Shown here piece after piece: positions 7,063 to 35,596 of a stretch of 64,000 nucleotides of DNA. Source of the stretch: Streptomyces phaeolivaceus (GTDB lineage: Bacteria; Actinomycetota; Actinomycetes; Streptomycetales; Streptomycetaceae); contig NZ_CP045096.1 of NCBI RefSeq assembly GCF_009184865.1, positions 7,130,001-7,194,000 of the forward strand, written 5' to 3'. The notes under the pieces are model-generated. The model was given only the letters and a program-made list of their open reading frames with translations. It did not search any database and was not told where the DNA came from. Position 1 is the stretch's first letter; every line of letters begins with the position of its first letter. A program made the position numbers and the translations under genes.

Positions 7063-8175
7063 GTGAGTTCCCCAGATCCACAGGTTCGCGCAGCGCGAAA
7101 CCACTCAACCAGTCCCGCCGTGCGCGGGCCCGTCGTCGCGGTCACCGGCGCCGCGTCCGGCGTAGGAGCGCTGCTCACCGAGCGGCTCGCCGAGTCCGAC
7201 GAGATCCGGCAGGTCGTGGCCATCGACGAGCGGCGCGGGGAGTGCGCCGCCGCGCAGTGGCACATCCTGGACGTGCGGGACCCGGCGATCGCCGAGAAGC
7301 TGCGCGGGGCGGACGTCGTGGTGCACCTCGCCGTCGACCTCGACCTGGGCACGGACTCGGCGGCGCGCAGCGCGTACAACGTGCGCGGTACGCAGACGGT
7401 GCTCACGGCCGCCGCCGCGGCCGGAGTGCACCGGGTCGTGCTGTGCACCTCGGCGATGGTCTACGGGGCGCTGCCCGAGAACGAGCTGCCGCTGTCGGAG
7501 GACGCCGAGCTGCGGGCGACCGCCGAGGCCACCGGGGTCGGCGACCTGCTGGAGATCGAGCGGCTCGCGCGCCGGGCGCCGCGCGCCCATCCGGGCCTCA
7601 ATGTCACCGTCGTACGCCCCGCGACCCTTGTCGGAGGCACGGACACCGCGCTGACCAGGTACTTCGAGTCGCCTCGGCTGCTGGTGGTGGCCGGGTCGCG
7701 GCCCGCCTGGCAGTTCTGTCATGTCGAGGATCTGTGCGCGGCGCTGGAGTACGCCGTGCTGGAGAAGGTGGACGGGGAGCTGGCCGTCGGGTGCGAGGGG
7801 TGGCTGGAGCAGGAGGAGGTCGAGGAGCTCAGCGGGATCCGGCGCATGGAGCTGCCGTCCGCCGTCGCTCTCGGGGCCGCCGCTCGGCTGCACCGGATCG
7901 GGTTGACGCCGTCGCCTGCCGGGGATCTGGCGTACACGATGTATCCGTGGGTCGTCAGTGGGAGCCGGTTGCACGACGCCGGGTGGCGGCCGTTGTGGAC
8001 CAATGAGGAAGTGCTCGCGGAGCTGCTGGAGGAGGTCGCCGGGCGGCACACCGTGGCCGGGCGGCGGCTGGGGCGCAAGGACGCGACAGCGGCGGGGGCG
8101 GCCGGTGCGACGGTCGCGCTGCTGGGTACGGCGGCGTTGGTGCGGCAGGTTCGGAAGGCTCGGGGGCGGCGCTGA
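7063..8175 (+). CDS. NAD-dependent epimerase/dehydratase (extended SDR)
   Basis: This 370-residue protein has the SDR cofactor loop VAVTGAASGVGALL near residue 25, HLAVDLDLGT near 90, and a serine/tyrosine pair (CTSAMVYG) near 128. YxxxK is not obvious, so the catalytic lysine is uncertain. The C-terminal 40 residues contain a short hydrophobic stretch (AGAAGATVALLGTAALV) that may anchor it to the membrane. The GTG at 7063 is preferred because GGAGA lies 9 bases upstream. Its 3' end is followed by a dispersed intergenic repeat and then moaE. The substrate is unknown; a nucleotide-sugar or sterol-like substrate would be a guess. Confidence 0.8.
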   Translation: MSSPDPQVRAARNHSTSPAVRGPVVAVTGAASGVGALLTERLAESDEIRQVVAIDERRGECAAAQWHILDVRDPAIAEKLRGADVVVHLAVDLDLGTDSAARSAYNVRGTQTVLTAAAAAGVHRVVLCTSAMVYGALPENELPLSEDAELRATAEATGVGDLLEIERLARRAPRAHPGLNVTVVRPATLVGGTDTALTRYFESPRLLVVAGSRPAWQFCHVEDLCAALEYAVLEKVDGELAVGCEGWLEQEEVEELSGIRRMELPSAVALGAAARLHRIGLTPSPAGDLAYTMYPWVVSGSRLHDAGWRPLWTNEEVLAELLEEVAGRHTVAGRRLGRKDATAAGAAGATVALLGTAALVRQVRKARGRR

Positions 8176-27912: not shown

Positions 27913-28278
27913 TCAGACCTCCAGGCCGTTCTCGATGCGCTTCAGGCCGTGCCGGGCCAGTGCCAGGTTGCTGCGGGAGCGGTCCAGCGCGAGGTAGAGG
28001 AAGAGCGAGCCCTTGCTGCTGGTCAGCGGGCGGATCAGGTGGTACTGCCGGCCCAGGGTGATCAGGATGTCCTCGATCACGTCGTTCATGTCCAGCGAGG
28101 CCAGCGTGCGCATCTTGGAGCGCACGACCTCGGTGTTCCCGGCCGCCGCGAGTTCCAGGTCGAGGCCCTGTCCGCCGCCGAGGGTACCGAGCGACATACC
28201 GCTCTCGTAGTCGACCAGCGCGACACCGATCGCACCGTCGAGGGTCATGGCTTCCTTGAGCGCGGTCTCGATGTTCAT
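27913..28278 (-). CDS. Roadblock/LC7 domain protein
   Basis: This 121-residue protein is a single roadblock/LC7 (MglB-like) domain. A helix (MNIETALKEAMTLDG) is followed by a strand pair (AIGVALVDYESGMSLGTL), a central helix, and a second beta hairpin (HLIRPLTSSKGSLFLYLAL). It closes with a helix (NLALARHGLKRIENGL). Such domains form platforms that bind small Ras-like GTPases, but none is encoded nearby. It is divergent from the roadblock operon starting at 28433 over a 154-bp region with two dyads. The ATG at 28278 is the first plausible start. Confidence 0.85.
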   Translation of the reverse strand: MNIETALKEAMTLDGAIGVALVDYESGMSLGTLGGGQGLDLELAAAGNTEVVRSKMRTLASLDMNDVIEDILITLGRQYHLIRPLTSSKGSLFLYLALDRSRSNLALARHGLKRIENGLEV

Positions 28279-28305
28279 ATTGCTGCCCCAATTCCTCAGT
28301 GCTGC

Positions 28306-28359
28306 TGACCGGTCACTGTCCGGCCAACTACGATCGAACGCGAGTGACCCACCGGTCAC
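28306..28359. promoter_or_regulatory. Two related dyads in the divergent roadblock promoter
   Basis: TGACCGGTCA (28306-28315) and GTGACCCACCGGTCAC (28344-28359) share the GTGACC/GGTCAC half-site. Their centres are about 41 bp apart, and they stand between two divergent roadblock genes. The binding protein is not known. Confidence 0.5.
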
Positions 28360-28432
28360 AAACATCAACTTTTCTGTGTGTTTCGGAAGTTGGCGTTCAA
28401 GGTACTGTGCGGCGCGTGAACGTGGAGGGCGA

Positions 28433-28816
28433 ATGGGGGGACTTGAGGAAAGGAAGCCCGCGCTCCAGGCCTCCCTGGACCGGCTTCTCGACTCTCCCGG
28501 CGTCACCGGCGTGGCCCTCGTCGACGCGGTCACGGGCCTGACCTACGCCGTGGCCGGCGACGCCGCCCAGGCGGGGACGGGGGCGGAGAGCTCCGATCTC
28601 GCCACCCTCATCTCCGAGCGGCTCGGCGCGGCCGGGGCCCAGGGGGAGTTGGAGAGCGTGGTCATGACCAGCAGAAGGCGCCATCAGGTGCTGCTCCGCG
28701 TGGACCGGTCGGCCGGCGACCCGCTGCTGCTGGCGGCCGGTCTCGACCGCGACCGGGCGAACGTGGCCCTGGCGCTGCGCAGCCTCGGCGACCGGGCCCG
28801 AGAGGTGCTGGCGTGA
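28433..28816 (+). CDS. Roadblock/LC7-like protein
   Basis: This 127-residue protein has a roadblock-type layout: a helix (ALQASLDRLLDSPGVTG), a strand pair (VALVDAVTGLTYAVAGD), a helix (SDLATLISERLGAAG), then ELESVVMTSRRRHQVLLRV and a closing helix (ANVALALRSLGDRAREVL). It is related in layout to the protein encoded at 27913 but clearly diverged. Its GTGA stop/start overlap with the next gene implies translational coupling. Its function is unknown; a scaffold or GTPase-regulator role would be inference from the fold. Confidence 0.75.
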   Translation: MGGLEERKPALQASLDRLLDSPGVTGVALVDAVTGLTYAVAGDAAQAGTGAESSDLATLISERLGAAGAQGELESVVMTSRRRHQVLLRVDRSAGDPLLLAAGLDRDRANVALALRSLGDRAREVLA

Positions 28817-29649
28817 AGACACCCTCGGCACGCAATGTGCCCGCGCTGCTGCAGGCACTGCACCAGGAGGGCTACACCGGTACCGTGCGGGTCTCCGGTT
28901 CCCCTGGTGGCACGATTCACCTGCGGGACGGTCTCATCGGCGCGATCGAGACACCGGGCGCGCCGACCGCGACGACCGCGTTGCTCGCCTCGGGCCGCAT
29001 CGACGACGACGCCTGGCTCGCGGCCTGCGCGGCCGAACCCGACGCCGACCGGCTCGGTCCGCGCCTGGCGACCGACGGCCTGATCGGCGCCGCCGAACTG
29101 GAGGTCGTCTGTACGGCGGCGGTGTTCGACGGGGCCTTCGCGATGGCGCTCAGCCCGCCCGGCGGCTGGGAACTGGCCGAACGCCAACCCACTTTGCTCG
29201 CCCGGCCCGGTGTCGAGCCGAGGCCGCTGGCCGAGGAGATCACCCGCCGCATGGCGCTGCTGACCCGGCTGTGGGGCCCCGCGGGCGAACTCGCCCGCGC
29301 CCGGCCCCGATCGGCCACCGGCCGCGGCACCCCGGAATCCGACGGCCGGCTGACCCGACGCCACCGCGACCTGGTCGAGAGCGCCAACGGCCGCCGTACC
29401 CCGCGTGACATCGCCTTCGCCCGGGGGCGCGGCCTCTACGCGGTGATGCTCGACCTCATTCGGCTGGCATCGCTCCAGGCCGTCCATTGGGAGACCGGGA
29501 CCGCGCCCGACGGTCGGCCCGGCACCGCGCCCCGGATCCCCCAGGGACAGCCGGCATCCGACGAAACGTCACCGAGAGCCGGTCCCCTGCCCAGACGCAG
29601 GCCCGGTGGAGGCTCTCCCATCGGAGACCTCGGAGCGAAGGACGGGTAG
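28813..29649 (+). CDS. PATAN/DUF4388-like protein of the roadblock operon
   Basis: This 278-residue protein opens with VPALLQALHQEGYTGTVRV and GTIHLRDGLIGAIETPG (residues 8-55). This is the pattern of DUF4388/PATAN domains that often accompany roadblock proteins in GTPase and chemotaxis-like switches. A winged-helix-like end follows (RRHRDLVESANGRRTPRDIA, about residues 175-195). The last 55 residues are proline/glycine-rich. GTG 28813 overlaps the upstream stop. A DNA-binding role is possible but unproven. Confidence 0.65.
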   Translation: MKTPSARNVPALLQALHQEGYTGTVRVSGSPGGTIHLRDGLIGAIETPGAPTATTALLASGRIDDDAWLAACAAEPDADRLGPRLATDGLIGAAELEVVCTAAVFDGAFAMALSPPGGWELAERQPTLLARPGVEPRPLAEEITRRMALLTRLWGPAGELARARPRSATGRGTPESDGRLTRRHRDLVESANGRRTPRDIAFARGRGLYAVMLDLIRLASLQAVHWETGTAPDGRPGTAPRIPQGQPASDETSPRAGPLPRRRPGGGSPIGDLGAKDG

Positions 29650-30167
29650 TGAGCCCCGACAAAGACCCGGCCCGCAAGCGCCGCATACGCAGCAAGGCCG
29701 CCCGCCTCCGACGGCGTTCGGTCCCCAGAGCCGCCGCGGACGAGCGCCCGGTCCCGCCCGCCGAACCCCCGACGCCCGCCGAGAACCCACCGCCTGCCGA
29801 TCACCCGCCACCCGCCCAAACCCCACCGCTCGTCGCGCCTGTCCCCACGATCGCGGCCCGGCCGCCGTCCACCGAGCCCGGTGGCGCGACTGCCGCACAG
29901 CCACCGTCCACCCCGTCCCGCGCCGATGACGGTGGCGCCGCCGCGGGACCGCCGCCGTTACCCGTACGGGGTGCCGCACCCGCACCCGCTCCCGGGAACG
30001 CCGGGGACGACACGTCGGACAACCCGGCCGTGCCGCCCCCCTTCCCACCCCTGTCCCTGCTGTCGGCCGAGGAACTCCTCGCCGACCAACCCTCCGTCGA
30101 CATGCTGCGGCGGGTCCGCCGCGGGCTGCGGGCCCTCCCCGAGTCCGATGGGCACCTGTCCGATTGA
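29649..30167 (+). CDS. Proline-rich protein of the roadblock operon
   Basis: This 172-residue protein has a basic head (KDPARKRRIRSKAARLRRRS). A proline/alanine-rich disordered middle of about 100 residues follows. It ends in a short conserved-looking helix (LSLLSAEELLADQPSVDML followed by RRVRRGLRALPE). The GTG start overlaps the upstream TAG by one base. The basic head could bind nucleic acid or membrane, but this is a guess. I do not recognise the family. Confidence 0.65.
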   Translation: MSPDKDPARKRRIRSKAARLRRRSVPRAAADERPVPPAEPPTPAENPPPADHPPPAQTPPLVAPVPTIAARPPSTEPGGATAAQPPSTPSRADDGGAAAGPPPLPVRGAAPAPAPGNAGDDTSDNPAVPPPFPPLSLLSAEELLADQPSVDMLRRVRRGLRALPESDGHLSD

Positions 30168-30220
30168 ACCGCTCGGACCGCACCACCACCGCAGAAGTCT
30201 GGACCAAGGAGCACGTCCCC

Positions 30221-30610
30221 ATGACCGCACACGCATCGACCGAATCGCTGACGGACATCCTGGCCTCGCTGCGTGACCGGGTGATGGGCGTCTCCGAGAG
30301 TGTCCTGTCCACCGTGGACGGGCTCCTCGTCGTCGCCGACGTCGACAAGGTCCACCCCGAGTCCGTCGCCGCGCTCGCCGCCGCCACCCTCGGCGTCGGC
30401 CGCCGCATGGCCGACCAGTCCGGCGCCGGCGCGCTCCGTGAGGTCGTCGTCCGGTGCGGCGCCGGCCATGTCATCGTCGTCGCCGTCGGCGAACGCACCC
30501 TGCTGACCGTCATGGGCGACGACGGCCTCGACATCGCCGCCTTCCAGCGCGAGTCCCCGGCGACCGTGGAACAGCTCGGCAAGGTGCTCGCCGCGGACGT
30601 GGCGAACTGA
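30221..30610 (+). CDS. Roadblock/LC7 domain protein
   Basis: This 129-residue protein is a roadblock domain: SLRDRVMGVSESVLSTVDGL, then a strand pair (LLVVADVDKVHPES), a helix (SVAALAAATLGVGRRMADQ), a hairpin (REVVVRCGAGHVIVVAVGE) and a closing helix. AAGGAGC lies 9 bases before the ATG at 30221, which decides this start over a TTG at 30164. It closes the operon 28433-30610. Together with the protein at 27913 and that at 28433 it makes three roadblock-type domains in 2.7 kb. Confidence 0.85.
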   Translation: MTAHASTESLTDILASLRDRVMGVSESVLSTVDGLLVVADVDKVHPESVAALAAATLGVGRRMADQSGAGALREVVVRCGAGHVIVVAVGERTLLTVMGDDGLDIAAFQRESPATVEQLGKVLAADVAN

Positions 30611-30848: not shown

Positions 30849-32444
30849 ATGGGGTCGGTGCCGGCAGGGGCACGTGTGTACGTCGCCTGTGCCGCCCTCG
30901 GCGCCCTCGCCTGTCTTTCCCCGCTGCCGGACGTCCGCGTCCCGTGGGGCGCGGTGGCCCTGCTCGCCGCGCTGTACGCCGGGTGCGAGCAGATCACCCG
31001 GTGCCCGTTCATGGGCCACCGGGCCCCCAGGGGCATGGGCACCTTCTTCCCGGTGCTGCTCGCCGGGGCCTTCCTGCTGCCGGTGCCCGCCGCCGCGCTC
31101 GTGGCCGTGCCGGGAGCGCTGCTCTCCCGGGTCGAGCAGCGCCCGCGAGCGCTGCGCCGGATCTGGCGCGCGGCCCGACTCGTGCTCGCGGTATGGGCCG
31201 CCGCACGGGTCCACGAGGCGCTCGGCGGCCGGGACGTGCTCGGTGCCGGGGAGACGGTCGGGACGGTCGCCGGCCCCGACTTCCCGTACGCGCTGCTGCC
31301 CGCCGGGGCCGCCGCACTGGTGTTCTGCGCGGTGCTCACCCTCCTCGACGGCGGCATTCTGGCGCTCGCCGAGCGGGTCCCCGCGCGCGGCGCCTGGAAG
31401 GGGCTCTTCCTGCGGTCGTCGGCGCCCGTCACCGTGCACGGGCTCGCCGGGCTGATGATGGCCGTGCTGTGGCGCAGCCCGTACGGGTCGCTCGCCGCGC
31501 TGCTCGTGCTGCTGCCGATGTACGTGTCCTGCTGGGTGTTCGCGCAGTACCACCGGGAGCGGGTCGCGCACCGGGCGACCATCCGCGCGCTCGTGCAGGC
31601 CGTCGACATCAAGGACGGCTACACGCGCGGACACAGCGAGCGGGTCGGGCAGGCGTCCCTGCTGATCGCGCGCGAGCTGGGCATGGACGACGAGCGGGCC
31701 GAGGTCCTCCGGTTCGCCGGGATCCTGCACGACGTGGGGAAGCTGGGGGTGCCCACGCGGCTGCTGCGCAAGGACGGGCCGTTGACTCCCGAGGAACGGC
31801 GGGTCATCGAACTGCACCCCGAGTACGGCCACGAGATCGTGCGCGGGATCTCCTTCCTCGGGGAGGCCCGTGCGGCGGTCCTGCACCACCATGAGCGACT
31901 GGACGGCAGCGGGTACCCCTACGGGCTGGCCGGCGGCCAGATCCCCGAGTTCGCCCGGGTCGTGGCCGTCGCGGACGCCTTCGACGCCATGACCTCCACC
32001 CGCTCCTACCGGCGGGCCCGCCCCGTCGCCGCCGCGCTGGCCGAACTGGACCGGTGCGCGGGGGCGCAGTTCGACCCCGTCATGGTGGCCGCGCTGGCGC
32101 GGGCCCTCGGCCGACACGGCTGGCGTCCGACGGTGACCGCGGACACCTGCGGAAACGTACCGCCGCATGGGCCGCCTGGGCCGCTCGGGGCCGGCCGGGG
32201 AGCGGGGGAGACGGGAACCGGGCGGGCGGACGAGGCTTCGGCGGACGAGGTGCGGGTCGACAAGGGGCTCCTGGACAAGTGGCGCCCCGACAAGGCGCGG
32301 GCGGAGGCCGATGTGCCGTACGGGGCCGGTGCGGAGGCCAGGGCGGAGGCCGGTGCAGGGAGTGGCGCCGGTGCGGGGCGGGCCGCTCGGGCTGACGGGG
32401 AGCGTGCGCGAGGGGTGCGACCGGCCGGGAAGCGGGCACCGTGA
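30849..32444 (+). CDS. Membrane HD-GYP domain protein
   Basis: This 531-residue protein has several hydrophobic segments in residues 1-230. A full HD-GYP domain follows at about 245-430: GYTRGHSERVGQASLLIA, ILHDVGKLGVPTRLLRKDG, HHHERLDGSGYPYGLAGG and VADAFDAMTSTRSYR. The metal-binding HD and the GYP motif are both intact, as in c-di-GMP phosphodiesterases. Whether this branch cleaves c-di-GMP is not shown. The last 100 residues are low-complexity, rich in A/G/E/D. Its stop overlaps the start of a second HD protein (GTGA). Confidence 0.9.
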   Translation: MGSVPAGARVYVACAALGALACLSPLPDVRVPWGAVALLAALYAGCEQITRCPFMGHRAPRGMGTFFPVLLAGAFLLPVPAAALVAVPGALLSRVEQRPRALRRIWRAARLVLAVWAAARVHEALGGRDVLGAGETVGTVAGPDFPYALLPAGAAALVFCAVLTLLDGGILALAERVPARGAWKGLFLRSSAPVTVHGLAGLMMAVLWRSPYGSLAALLVLLPMYVSCWVFAQYHRERVAHRATIRALVQAVDIKDGYTRGHSERVGQASLLIARELGMDDERAEVLRFAGILHDVGKLGVPTRLLRKDGPLTPEERRVIELHPEYGHEIVRGISFLGEARAAVLHHHERLDGSGYPYGLAGGQIPEFARVVAVADAFDAMTSTRSYRRARPVAAALAELDRCAGAQFDPVMVAALARALGRHGWRPTVTADTCGNVPPHGPPGPLGAGRGAGETGTGRADEASADEVRVDKGLLDKWRPDKARAEADVPYGAGAEARAEAGAGSGAGAGRAARADGERARGVRPAGKRAP

Positions 32445-33670
32445 GGCTGCTTCCCGGGCTTCGTCGGGCCGCGCTCCTCCTCTCCCTCCTCGGCCTCGCC
32501 CACACGCTCTGGCATGGGCTCGACGAACCCGGTGTCGCACTCGCGTTCGGGCTGCTCATGGTGGTGGGGGAGCTGTCGCGAGGGCGTGGGGTCCAGGGGC
32601 GGGAGGCCGCGCCGCTCGGGGCCGCCGGCGCGCTCGCGTACGCGCTGCTGGGGGAGAACGACGGCCGGCCGACGGGACACGGGGTGCTCCAGGTCGTCGC
32701 CGTCGTCGTCGCGGCGGCGCTGCTGGGCTGTGTGCCGCACGTGGCGAGGGGATGCGGGTCCACCGTCGATCACCTCACCCGGCGGGTGCTCACCGCCGCC
32801 TTCGCCGCCCTCTGTTTCCAGCCGCTGTACAACCGGGGCAGGCTGCTGGAGTGGAGCGGCCCCTCCTATGTACTGCTGCTCGTCGCGCTGCTCGTCGTGA
32901 CCGCGCTGTGCGACGCCGTGCTGGCGGCGGCCATGGCCCACTCCCGGACCCGGTGGCCGTTCGGCCCGCTGCTGAGGGACGAACTGCGGGCGCTGCCGGG
33001 CATCGGGGCGGCGGTGTGCGCGACCGGGGTCGTCATGGCGCTCGCGGTCGGTGTCGTCGGACTGTGGGCACTGCCGGTCTTCTCCCTGCCCCTCCTTCTC
33101 GCCCAACTGTCGTTCCGGCGGTACGCGGCCGTGCGGACCACCTACCGGCAGACCATCGCCTCGCTCGCGCGGGCCACCGAGATCGCCGGGTACACCCCGG
33201 CCGGGCACGCCCGGCGGGTGGCCGTGCTCAGCCGAGAGGTGGGCCGCGAGCTGGGCCTCGGCGAATCGGACCTGACCGTGCTGGAGTACGCGGCGCTGAT
33301 GCACGACATAGGCCAACTGAGCCTCGTCGACCCCGTACCGGGCGGTGCGACGGCCGGGCTCCCGGCGGCCGAGCAGCGCCGGATCGCGCTGCTGGGCGGC
33401 GCGGTCGTACGGCAGACCGGGGTGGACGCCGAGGTCGCCGTGGTGGTGGAGCGCCAGGCGGATCCGTACCGTGAACAGCCGGTGGGCGCGAGGATCGTGC
33501 GGGCCGTGAACGCATACGAGGAGAAGGTCCGGGAAGCAGGGCCCGGAGGACCGCTCAGGGCGCTGGCGGAACTGCGGCTGGGAACGGCCCGGGACTATCA
33601 CCCGGAGGTGGTCGAATCGCTCGCGAGGGTACTGTCGAGAGACTGTCTGACCTTGCCCGAGGTGGGGTAA
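32441..33670 (+). CDS. Membrane HD-domain protein with degenerate GYP motif
   Basis: This 409-residue protein parallels its upstream neighbour: about six hydrophobic segments (residues 1-215), then an HD region with TPAGHARRVAVLSREVGRE and LMHDIGQLSLVDP. The HHExxDGxGYP stretch is absent; the equivalent place reads VVERQADPYREQPVGARIV. So the HD metal ligands remain, but the GYP signature is lost. A pseudo-enzyme or a regulatory partner of the first protein is plausible (inference). It starts at GTG 32441, overlapping the upstream stop by 4 bp. Confidence 0.85.
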   Translation: MRLLPGLRRAALLLSLLGLAHTLWHGLDEPGVALAFGLLMVVGELSRGRGVQGREAAPLGAAGALAYALLGENDGRPTGHGVLQVVAVVVAAALLGCVPHVARGCGSTVDHLTRRVLTAAFAALCFQPLYNRGRLLEWSGPSYVLLLVALLVVTALCDAVLAAAMAHSRTRWPFGPLLRDELRALPGIGAAVCATGVVMALAVGVVGLWALPVFSLPLLLAQLSFRRYAAVRTTYRQTIASLARATEIAGYTPAGHARRVAVLSREVGRELGLGESDLTVLEYAALMHDIGQLSLVDPVPGGATAGLPAAEQRRIALLGGAVVRQTGVDAEVAVVVERQADPYREQPVGARIVRAVNAYEEKVREAGPGGPLRALAELRLGTARDYHPEVVESLARVLSRDCLTLPEVG

Positions 33671-34945: not shown

Positions 34946-35596
34946 ATGGCCCAGCAGGACACCGATCAGCAGCACGTGGGCGTGCTCCCCGTCGATGACG
35001 AGGGGTTCGTCGTCGACACGGAGGACTGCGAGGAGCGCGAGCAGGCGTACCGGGAGCGTGGCACGTCCCTGCCGATCACCGTGGTCGGGAACCCGGTGCT
35101 GCACAAGGAGTGCAAGGACGTCACCGAGTTCGGCGACGAACTGGCGAAGCTGGTGGACGACATGTTCGCCAGCCAGCACACGGCGGAGGGCGTGGGTCTC
35201 GCCGCGAACCAGGTCGGCGTCGACCTCAAGGTGTTCGTGTACGACTGCCCGGACGACGAGGGCAAGCGGCACACCGGTGTGATCTGCAACCCCAAGCTGG
35301 TCGAACTGCCCGCCGGGACACGCCGGTTGGACGACAGCAACGAGGGCTGTCTGTCGGTTCCGACCGCGTACATGCCGCTCGCCCGCCCCGACTACGCCGA
35401 GGTCACCGGGCAGGACGAGAAGGGCAACCCGATCAAGGTGCGCGGCACCGGCTACTTCGCGCGCTGCCTCCAGCACGAGACCGATCACCTGTACGGCTAC
35501 CTGTACATCGACCGGCTCTCCAAGCGCGATCGCAAGGACGCGCTGCGGCAGATGGCCGAGAACGAGCCCCGCTACCCCGTGGTCGCCAACGACTGA
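34946..35596 (+). CDS. def: Peptide deformylase
   Basis: This 216-residue protein has all three deformylase motifs: [11 protein letters not shown] near residue 90, NEGCLSVP near 133, and [16 protein letters not shown] near 176. The cysteine and the two histidines bind the catalytic metal. It removes formyl groups from nascent proteins. An acidic 40-residue head before the catalytic domain ([19 protein letters not shown]) is an actinobacterial addition. It converges on nrdS with 33 bp between. The ATG at 34946 follows GAGGAAGG. Confidence 0.95.

Follow-up and report, generated by a model that had tools for sequence, protein, structure and literature searches.

A roadblock/PATAN gene module without a linked small GTPase in Streptomyces phaeolivaceus and other actinomycetes

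We analysed a 64,000-nucleotide stretch of the Streptomyces phaeolivaceus genome (hereafter, the window) and found in it one copy of a widespread actinomycete module, in which three distinct roadblock-type proteins (A, B, and E) and a PATAN protein (C) are encoded without a linked small GTPase. Bacterial roadblock proteins are mainly known as partners of small GTPases. We propose, with a probability of roughly 55%, that the module is a GTPase-less roadblock/PATAN adaptor and that its site beside sigR-rsrA is incidental. The best reading of the data is a roadblock-on-roadblock adaptor that is either free of any GTPase or uses one borrowed from a conservon; the working of such a GTPase-less module appears to be unstudied. 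The set is widespread and multi-copy in actinomycetes, which are rich in antibiotic producers, and it makes a roadblock role without a GTPase directly testable, with the GTPase-linked members of the A family as natural controls.

The locus and its proteins

As the preliminary description had stated, one roadblock gene (A) faces a four-gene operon (B-C-D-E) on the opposite strand, and its count of three different roadblock-type proteins and a PATAN protein with no small GTPase was also borne out (Table 1). The frames of B and C overlap by 4 nt. In a Pfam scan of A–E and the two next genes, only roadblock, DUF4388, and HD families scored above cut-off, and NCBIfam gave for A–E a single sub-threshold match, that of E to Thermus-type MglB (14 bits; cut-off 200). 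When 26 A–B intergenic regions were aligned, the best-conserved block, as judged by eye, contained the promoter-like sequence AAGGTACTGTGC ahead of B (28399–28410 in the window). The exact 8-mer AAAGTACT was present in 10 of the 26 regions, the version in the window being AAGGTACT. Its TACTGT before B may represent a putative −10 element.

Table 1 Features of the cassette at positions 27913–30610 of the window
Feature	Position	Strand	Description
A	27913..28278	-	121-aa roadblock-fold protein; family across several phyla
A-B intergenic, divergent	28279..28432		promoter-like stretch before B
B	28433..28816	+	127-aa roadblock-like protein, distant paralogue of A
C	28813..29649	+	PATAN/DUF4388 and winged helix, disordered end with GPLPRR motif
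D	29649..30167	+	172-aa proline-rich protein, basic N-terminus
E	30221..30610	+	MglB-type roadblock/LC7 protein

A is the best conserved component of the module and belongs to a roadblock family whose conservation across phyla is striking. It gave no Robl_LC7 match in the Pfam sequence scan and passed the structural test for the roadblock fold. B reached 11.4 bits against Robl_LC7, below the curated cut-off of 23, and its match to LAMTOR5 was likewise sub-threshold. Judged from the sequences, B is homologous to A: hhalign scored the pair at 99.5%, and in an unrooted tree all 15 B rows lay outside the A clade. E passed the curated Robl_LC7 cut-off (50.5 bits; E-value 1.7e-13). Its closest solved structures included the roadblock protein 7f8m (E-value 9.8e-9), CvnB5 (3leq, 1.9e-7), and Rv3364c (9hef, 1.1e-5). 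The Asp-Gly pair D33-G34 of E was invariant in 15 sequences; such a pair is reported as almost the sole conservation in the MglB proteins of Groups 2–5 (PMC4316618).

C matched PF14332 (DUF4388) over residues 9–147 (25.6 bits; cut-off 25; E-value 1.4e-5) and carries a C-terminal winged helix at about residues 152–228. Its predicted structure had a mean pLDDT of 88.6, and only the winged helix aligned with solved structures. Residues 147–163 of D (nt 30087–30137, QPSVDMLRRVRRGLRAL) form a conserved helix-like motif that resembles the C-terminal tail of C from modules arranged as a one-strand operon. The location of this tail changes: by visual count, C ends in it in 22 of the 24 one-strand operons, with one loose match among them, whereas in divergent cassettes it was found on C in at most 1 of 40, and in the window it lies on the separate gene D. 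A D-type motif between C and E was present in 13 of 39 cassettes, including that of the window. Thus, the proline-rich protein with a basic head is a member of the cluster, as first described, but not a core part of it.

Related GTPase systems and a proposed adaptor

The module resembles MglA/PATAN systems in joining an MglB-type roadblock to a PATAN protein, and in other actinobacterial classes such genes form E-C-GTPase operons: of 19 such loci, 14 have a GTPase after C, and in 12 of these an E-type roadblock comes first. Relatives of C in those classes matched DUF4388 at E-values of 3.3e-32 (L243) and 2.9e-37 (L254). The actinomycete module differs by the absence of the GTPase, by the extra roadblocks A and B, and by the winged helix and tail on C. 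PATAN proteins are known to accompany some Group 1 and Group 5 MglA systems (PMC4316618, citing Makarova et al. 2006). The Group 3 MglA systems of beta- and gammaproteobacteria comprise a winged-helix protein, MglA, and one or two MglB proteins, with an orphan MglB in some of them (PMC4316618, PMC11112851). Members of the A family adjoin GTPases on two proteobacterial plasmids, in the orders GTPase-roadblock-A (Comamonas) and A-BLUF-GTPase-roadblock (Agarilytica). The Comamonas A is 55% identical to that of the window, and a 235-aa protein encoded with this GTPase, roadblock, and A matched the winged-helix family HTH_IclR just under the cut-off (21.8 bits against 22). The Comamonas locus may be a Group 3 system, and A may be one of the Group 3 MglB clades. 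The module in the window differs from Group 3 in having no GTPase and a PATAN-type C, with which the 235-aa protein showed no profile match.

The conservons of Streptomyces are actinobacterial G protein systems composed of CvnA–D (PMC13343842). E is similar to CvnB proteins; however, the operon contains no kinase (CvnA), CvnC, or CvnD, and A, B, and C have no counterpart among CvnA–D. In Myxococcus xanthus, MglC binds MglB with a 2:4 stoichiometry, and the C-terminus of MglB is required for MglA but dispensable for MglC (PMC7949163). That pair differs from the present module in that MglA belongs to the same polarity module, and the abstract names no PATAN partner (PMC7949163).

A small actinobacterial MglB clade without a linked GTPase was noted in 2014 as 'exclusively orphan' (PMC4316618), and E may belong to it. 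The system had been put forward as undescribed; on this reading, that would not hold for the orphan MglB itself but would hold for its PATAN, A, and B partners, which do not figure in that account of the clade. The module may therefore give a context to a clade that was left aside there. No description of the B-C-E-A module and no match for a roadblock and DUF4388 pairing were found in the literature searched, whose coverage excluded most subscription papers. A report on S. albulus describes three 'dynein regulation protein LC7' genes that change under acid stress, which does not imply their membership in the module, and a pangenome study lists a roadblock orthologue group of unspecified kind as retained in all 205 strains.

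In the adaptor that we propose, E would be the MglB-type roadblock, and A and B would constitute a second, MglC-like class. Dimers of E would stack onto dimers of A (or B), as MglB dimers do on the MglC dimer in Myxococcus. C would hold this assembly and relay its state through the winged helix, and the helical tail, borne by C in one-strand operons and by D here, might be a docking peptide for one roadblock dimer. In 26 of the 39 cassettes, no D-type tail was found, so that docking through such a tail cannot be a general requirement. The eukaryotic Ragulator/LAMTOR complex, which works with Rag GTPases, offers an analogy in fold and layout only. Profile comparison counts against the adaptor, for it gave no link between A and E (0.1%) and a weak one between B and E (16%, E-value 0.0016).

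Related parts occur with an MglA-type GTPase in other lineages; hence, the module appears to be an Mgl/PATAN system in derived form, without the GTPase. A diverged A was also seen together with a GTPase and a roadblock in three actinomycete genomes (G457, G214, and G252). Two of these three diverged GTPases, those of L276 and L277, were scanned: the former matched MMR_HSR1 weakly (E-value 1e-4), and the latter, which was called short, gave no family match at an E-value of 0.001. Tentatively, actinomycetes may have lost the GTPase of such a switch, with A and B taking over the regulation of E and the docking helix moving between C and D. If so, protein–protein exchange would be the sole means of signalling of a bacterial roadblock assembly whose docking helix is detachable.

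The module could instead act on a GTPase encoded elsewhere, with E (and A and B) as a GAP-like or sequestering partner of one or more conservon CvnD proteins and, thereby, a link between conservons; we regard this as somewhat unlikely. A source is at hand, since the genome of S. phaeolivaceus encodes 14 MglA-type GTPases above the Pfam cut-off, but each already has a roadblock match less than 1 kb away. The nearest is 86 kb from E, and the nearest to the E paralogue is 842 kb away. The similarity of E to CvnB5 and Rv3364c and its retained Asp-Gly pair are consistent with a GTPase partner. So is locus L133, where a CvnD-like GTPase, with what looks like a conservon, adjoins the cassette; this was the only CvnD-like frame in the 101 sequences searched, with none in the window, and no other Ras-like small GTPase was seen among the 713 genes that lie up to four genes from the module at 100 loci. 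Among 393 genomes of the class, a CvnD/MglA-type GTPase was present in 107 of the 111 with A and in 121 of the 282 without it. This co-occurrence, though strong, is tied to ancestry, both features being common in large-genome actinomycetes, and is therefore not proof of partnership. In the four A-positive genomes without a GTPase by profile search, a search for PF03029 found nothing in three and a below-cut-off match in G375. Their existence argues against a borrowed GTPase; however, A has no adjoining B, C, or E in any of them, so that none of the genomes without a GTPase was seen to carry the complete module.

Distribution of the module

A profile search with A yielded at least 7,999 candidate proteins at an E-value of 0.001 or better; the 120 of them that were listed do not enter the counts below. 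In 80 named actinomycete loci, the best ones on a list of limited length, A occurred together with C and E in 46, well beyond close relatives, and C or E was missing near A in the other 34, some of which end at contig edges. The module adopts two layouts, a one-strand B-C-E-A operon or a divergent cassette as in the window, and the same genome holds a second copy in the one-strand form. Close matches to A, B, and C were present in the same 17 of 150 genomes of the family. The compact cluster of the preliminary description is therefore real but no local peculiarity, and neither of the refutations named there came about, given this wide co-occurrence and the structural result for A.

It is improbable that the genes are an accessory cassette that spreads without serving any one system, in which separate roadblock proteins merely travel together. 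The sites of the cassette vary between genomes, one cassette lies on a linear plasmid, relatives of A are found on plasmids, and among the best 80 loci A stood alone in 6, with E only in 14, and with B only in 8, all as such a cassette would predict. Nevertheless, the same partners keep one order across many genera, often with overlapping frames, and A is strongly conserved across phyla, which argues against this reading.

Chromosomal setting

In the window, the cassette is flanked by rsrA and an HD gene, a position that had been called either meaningful or accidental. Cassettes adjoined rsrA also at L084 and in 8 of the best 80 named loci. We compared rsrA loci drawn from 41 genomes of the genus, for 11 of which no locus was fetched. 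In 28 of 29 other loci, the HD gene (HD1) adjoined rsrA without A or B; at the 29th (L303), the contig stops 123 nt after rsrA. The placement is therefore most likely accidental. A part for the cassette in the thiol-oxidative-stress response of SigR-RsrA, as a sensor or relay of redox state, is very improbable and was rejected: of 15 cassettes fetched from outside the window, 14 lay elsewhere than beside rsrA, one cassette is plasmid-borne, and A contains no cysteine.

A role in anti-phage defence was likewise rejected: A–E had no PADLOC match at an E-value of 0.01, and tblastn of A against 50,697 phage records gave no match. No recurring function was found across the ten neighbour proteins scanned. 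Two genes upstream of A, locus L185 (Micromonosporaceae) has a NUDIX gene; in Frankia, a deformylase gene follows.

Distribution and layouts of the module

In the window, the module combines a 121-aa roadblock-fold protein (A), encoded on the minus strand, with four plus-strand products: a 127-aa distant paralogue of A (B), a PATAN/DUF4388 and winged-helix protein (C), a proline-rich protein (D), and an MglB-type roadblock/LC7 protein (E). Among 150 genomes of the family, matches to A, B, and C were found in 138, 134, and 116, respectively, the A and B counts including cross-matches between the two. Close relatives (at least 175 bits for A, 82 for B, and 183 for C) occurred in an identical set of 17 genomes, that of the window included. 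Gene maps of the best 80 named loci of a size-limited list, and of 20 further loci mapped separately, show two principal arrangements: either B-C-E-A form an operon on one strand, or A faces B-C-(D)-E in a divergent cassette, as in the window.

With loci cut by contig ends counted as they stand, E was located near A in 63 of the best 80 named loci, with or without other partners, and both C and E were within 3.5 kb of A in 46; A was partnered by E alone in 14, by B alone in 8, and by nothing in 6. The loci with A, C, and E carried 17 different labels at genus or family level, among them Kitasatospora, Paractinoplanes, Nocardia, Frankia, and Nonomuraea. Co-occurrence beyond close relatives, a point raised in the preliminary description, was thus confirmed, and the module in the window is not a local oddity. 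The genome of the window also carries a one-strand copy and a third A; no B, C, or E was identified in the 13 kb surrounding the latter. This third A lies about 50 kb from the contig end, and the small gene after it resembles an ArsR-type regulator on sequence inspection.

Coordinates of features in the genome of the window (C2, a contig of that genome; L080 and L325, extracted loci)
Feature	Location	Strand	Family match
One-strand copy of the module	L080 8033-10605, about C2:4028032-4030604		
Third A	C2:10065289-10065654 (L325:6284-6658, about C2:10065283)		
First HD-domain gene after the module (HD1), overlapping the second	window 30849-32444	+	HD_5, E 2.3e-41
Second HD-domain gene	window 32441-33670	+	HD, E 3.1e-6

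Small GTPases near the module and its relatives

As the preliminary description had noted for the window, no small GTPase accompanies the module: when the window and 100 loci were searched with a profile built from five CvnD proteins of the window's own genome, just one of these 101 sequences, L133, contained such a GTPase, which adjoins the cassette there along with another roadblock gene. The 713 genes lying up to four genes away from the module in the 100 loci were also scanned for Walker-A motifs, and the L133 gene was the only Ras-like small GTPase among them; on inspection, the other Walker-A genes resembled those for ABC proteins, helicases, and further unrelated products. L133, from Streptomyces corynorhini, is the only one of the 101 sequences with a CvnD-type GTPase directly next to the cassette; it also holds a 555-aa gene there, and the set is apparently a conservon.

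In the window's own genome, PF03029 gave 15 GTPase matches, 14 of them above its cut-off. Each of the 14 had a roadblock match within 1 kb. Of the 18 roadblock matches, the three with no such GTPase nearby were E, the paralogue of E, and a gene at C2:4490812. The last (L326:7771-8277) is followed by a small gene and by one that resembles a P450 gene on inspection, and this set may be a conservon from which the GTPase has been lost. In a class sample of 393 genomes, A was found in 111, the GTPase profile in 228, and both in 107. In the four genomes with A and no profile match (G331, G375, G411, and G484), the stretches examined around A, a 6-kb contig in G411, showed neither B nor C nor E next to it; PF03029 gave no match in three and one below cut-off in G375. 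A can thus exist without a recognizable MglA-type GTPase. The complete module was not seen in any genome of this sample that lacked such a GTPase.

Related parts do occur with GTPases. The C profile matched in 76 of 296 genomes of a phylum sample, and 20 match places were examined, 19 of them from classes other than that of the window. A GTPase followed C in 14 of these 19 (L243, 244, 247, 249-257, 260, and 262; weakly in L260 and L262, at 44 and 61 bits), an E-type roadblock preceding C in 12 of the 14; none adjoined C in L245, 246, 248, 258, and 259. Two of the other-class GTPases were scanned and matched Ras and ATP_bind_1, and two C relatives gave strong DUF4388 matches. In three genomes of the window's class (L276-L278), a diverged A was accompanied by a frame matching the GTPase profile (59-65 bits) and a roadblock; of the two frames scanned, that of L276 matched a GTPase family weakly and that of L277, called short, matched no family at E 0.001.

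A tblastn search of 72,556 plasmid records gave A matches in 26, with relatives at 40-56% identity in Proteobacteria, Deinococcus, and Hymenobacter. A Comamonas plasmid had the order 235-aa protein (winged-helix match below threshold), GTPase, roadblock, A; that of Agarilytica rhodophyticola had A, BLUF protein, GTPase, roadblock, the blue-light sensor gene hinting at a light input to that version. In Acinetobacter wuhouensis the order was roadblock, 321-aa protein, A, and no GTPase was annotated there or in the 6 kb at the opposite end of the circular record; the gene annotation of this record may be incomplete. These genes lie near IS elements, and the plasmid is typed conjugative. Several more plasmid copies of A had no recognizable partner. 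In an unrooted 46-row tree, A proteins of actinomycetes, proteobacteria, Deinococcus, and Hymenobacter formed a clade of 31 rows with support 100/99, the Hymenobacter branch being long and uncertain, and all 15 B proteins fell outside it. Members of the A family thus stand beside a GTPase, beside C and E where no GTPase is present, or by themselves; on this unrooted comparison, the simpler interpretation is that the actinomycete module lost its GTPase.

A candidate adaptor and the helical tail

We favour the reading that the module would act as a roadblock-on-roadblock adaptor held by C, because of three precedents. Wuichet and Sogaard-Andersen (PMC4316618) report 328 of 749 MglB homologues as uncoupled from MglA, including a small, exclusively uncoupled actinobacterial clade without flanking conservon genes, no orphan MglB having been characterized by the time of that account. 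In Myxococcus, an MglC dimer is described as held between two MglB dimers, the MglB C-terminus being required for MglA and dispensable for MglC (PMC7949163). In Snodgrassella, bacteria with a mutation in an orphan MglB of a Group 3 system are reported to have gained an advantage when in a non-native host (PMC11112851). Use of a borrowed GTPase encoded elsewhere is a less likely but viable alternative, since E is similar to CvnB proteins and, according to PMC13343842, MfpB has a GAP in the CvnB homologue MfpD and probably a GEF in MfpC.

C ended, by eye, in a motif like DPDVALLRRLRDALEAL in 22 of 24 one-strand operons (missing from L155 and L176, loose in L174), and in at most 1 of 40 cassettes, a loose case in L147; many cassette C proteins end in a PLPRR-type stretch instead. 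The window's D protein terminates in QPSVDMLRRVRRGLRALPESDGHLSD, and 13 of 39 cassettes, that of the window among them, carry a matching motif in the interval from C to E. D thus resembles a C tail that has become a separate gene, and this tail may dock on a roadblock dimer. The preliminary description had named the module the best candidate in the window for an undescribed system: the separate parts and the Mgl/PATAN pairing are already known, and no description of the whole four-part actinomycete module without a GTPase was found in the literature searched.

The site beside sigR-rsrA

The cassette of the window adjoins the stress-response pair sigR-rsrA, a position first described as either meaningful or accidental. 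rsrA was present in all 41 genus genomes, and 30 rsrA loci, that of the window among them, were examined. HD1 adjoined rsrA, with no A or B, in 28 of the 29 others; the L303 contig stops 123 nt past rsrA and is uninformative on the neighbour. HD1 therefore belongs to the older neighbourhood. Cassettes lay beside sigR-rsrA in 1 of 15 from other family genomes (L084) and in 8 of the best 80 named loci, and one was identified on a linear Streptomyces plasmid (L319). We read the site as an insertion common to some relatives and not as a functional link, which favours the accidental alternative.

A deformylase-like gene (window 34946-35596, by inspection) lies a few genes downstream, and in Frankia sp. 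QA3 (L187) a peptide deformylase gene (7189-7863) follows A and E; the parallel may be chance. A promoter-like stretch precedes B at window 28399-28410, within the best-conserved A-B intergenic block, and the exact 8-mer AAAGTACT was found in 10 of 26 aligned A-B regions.
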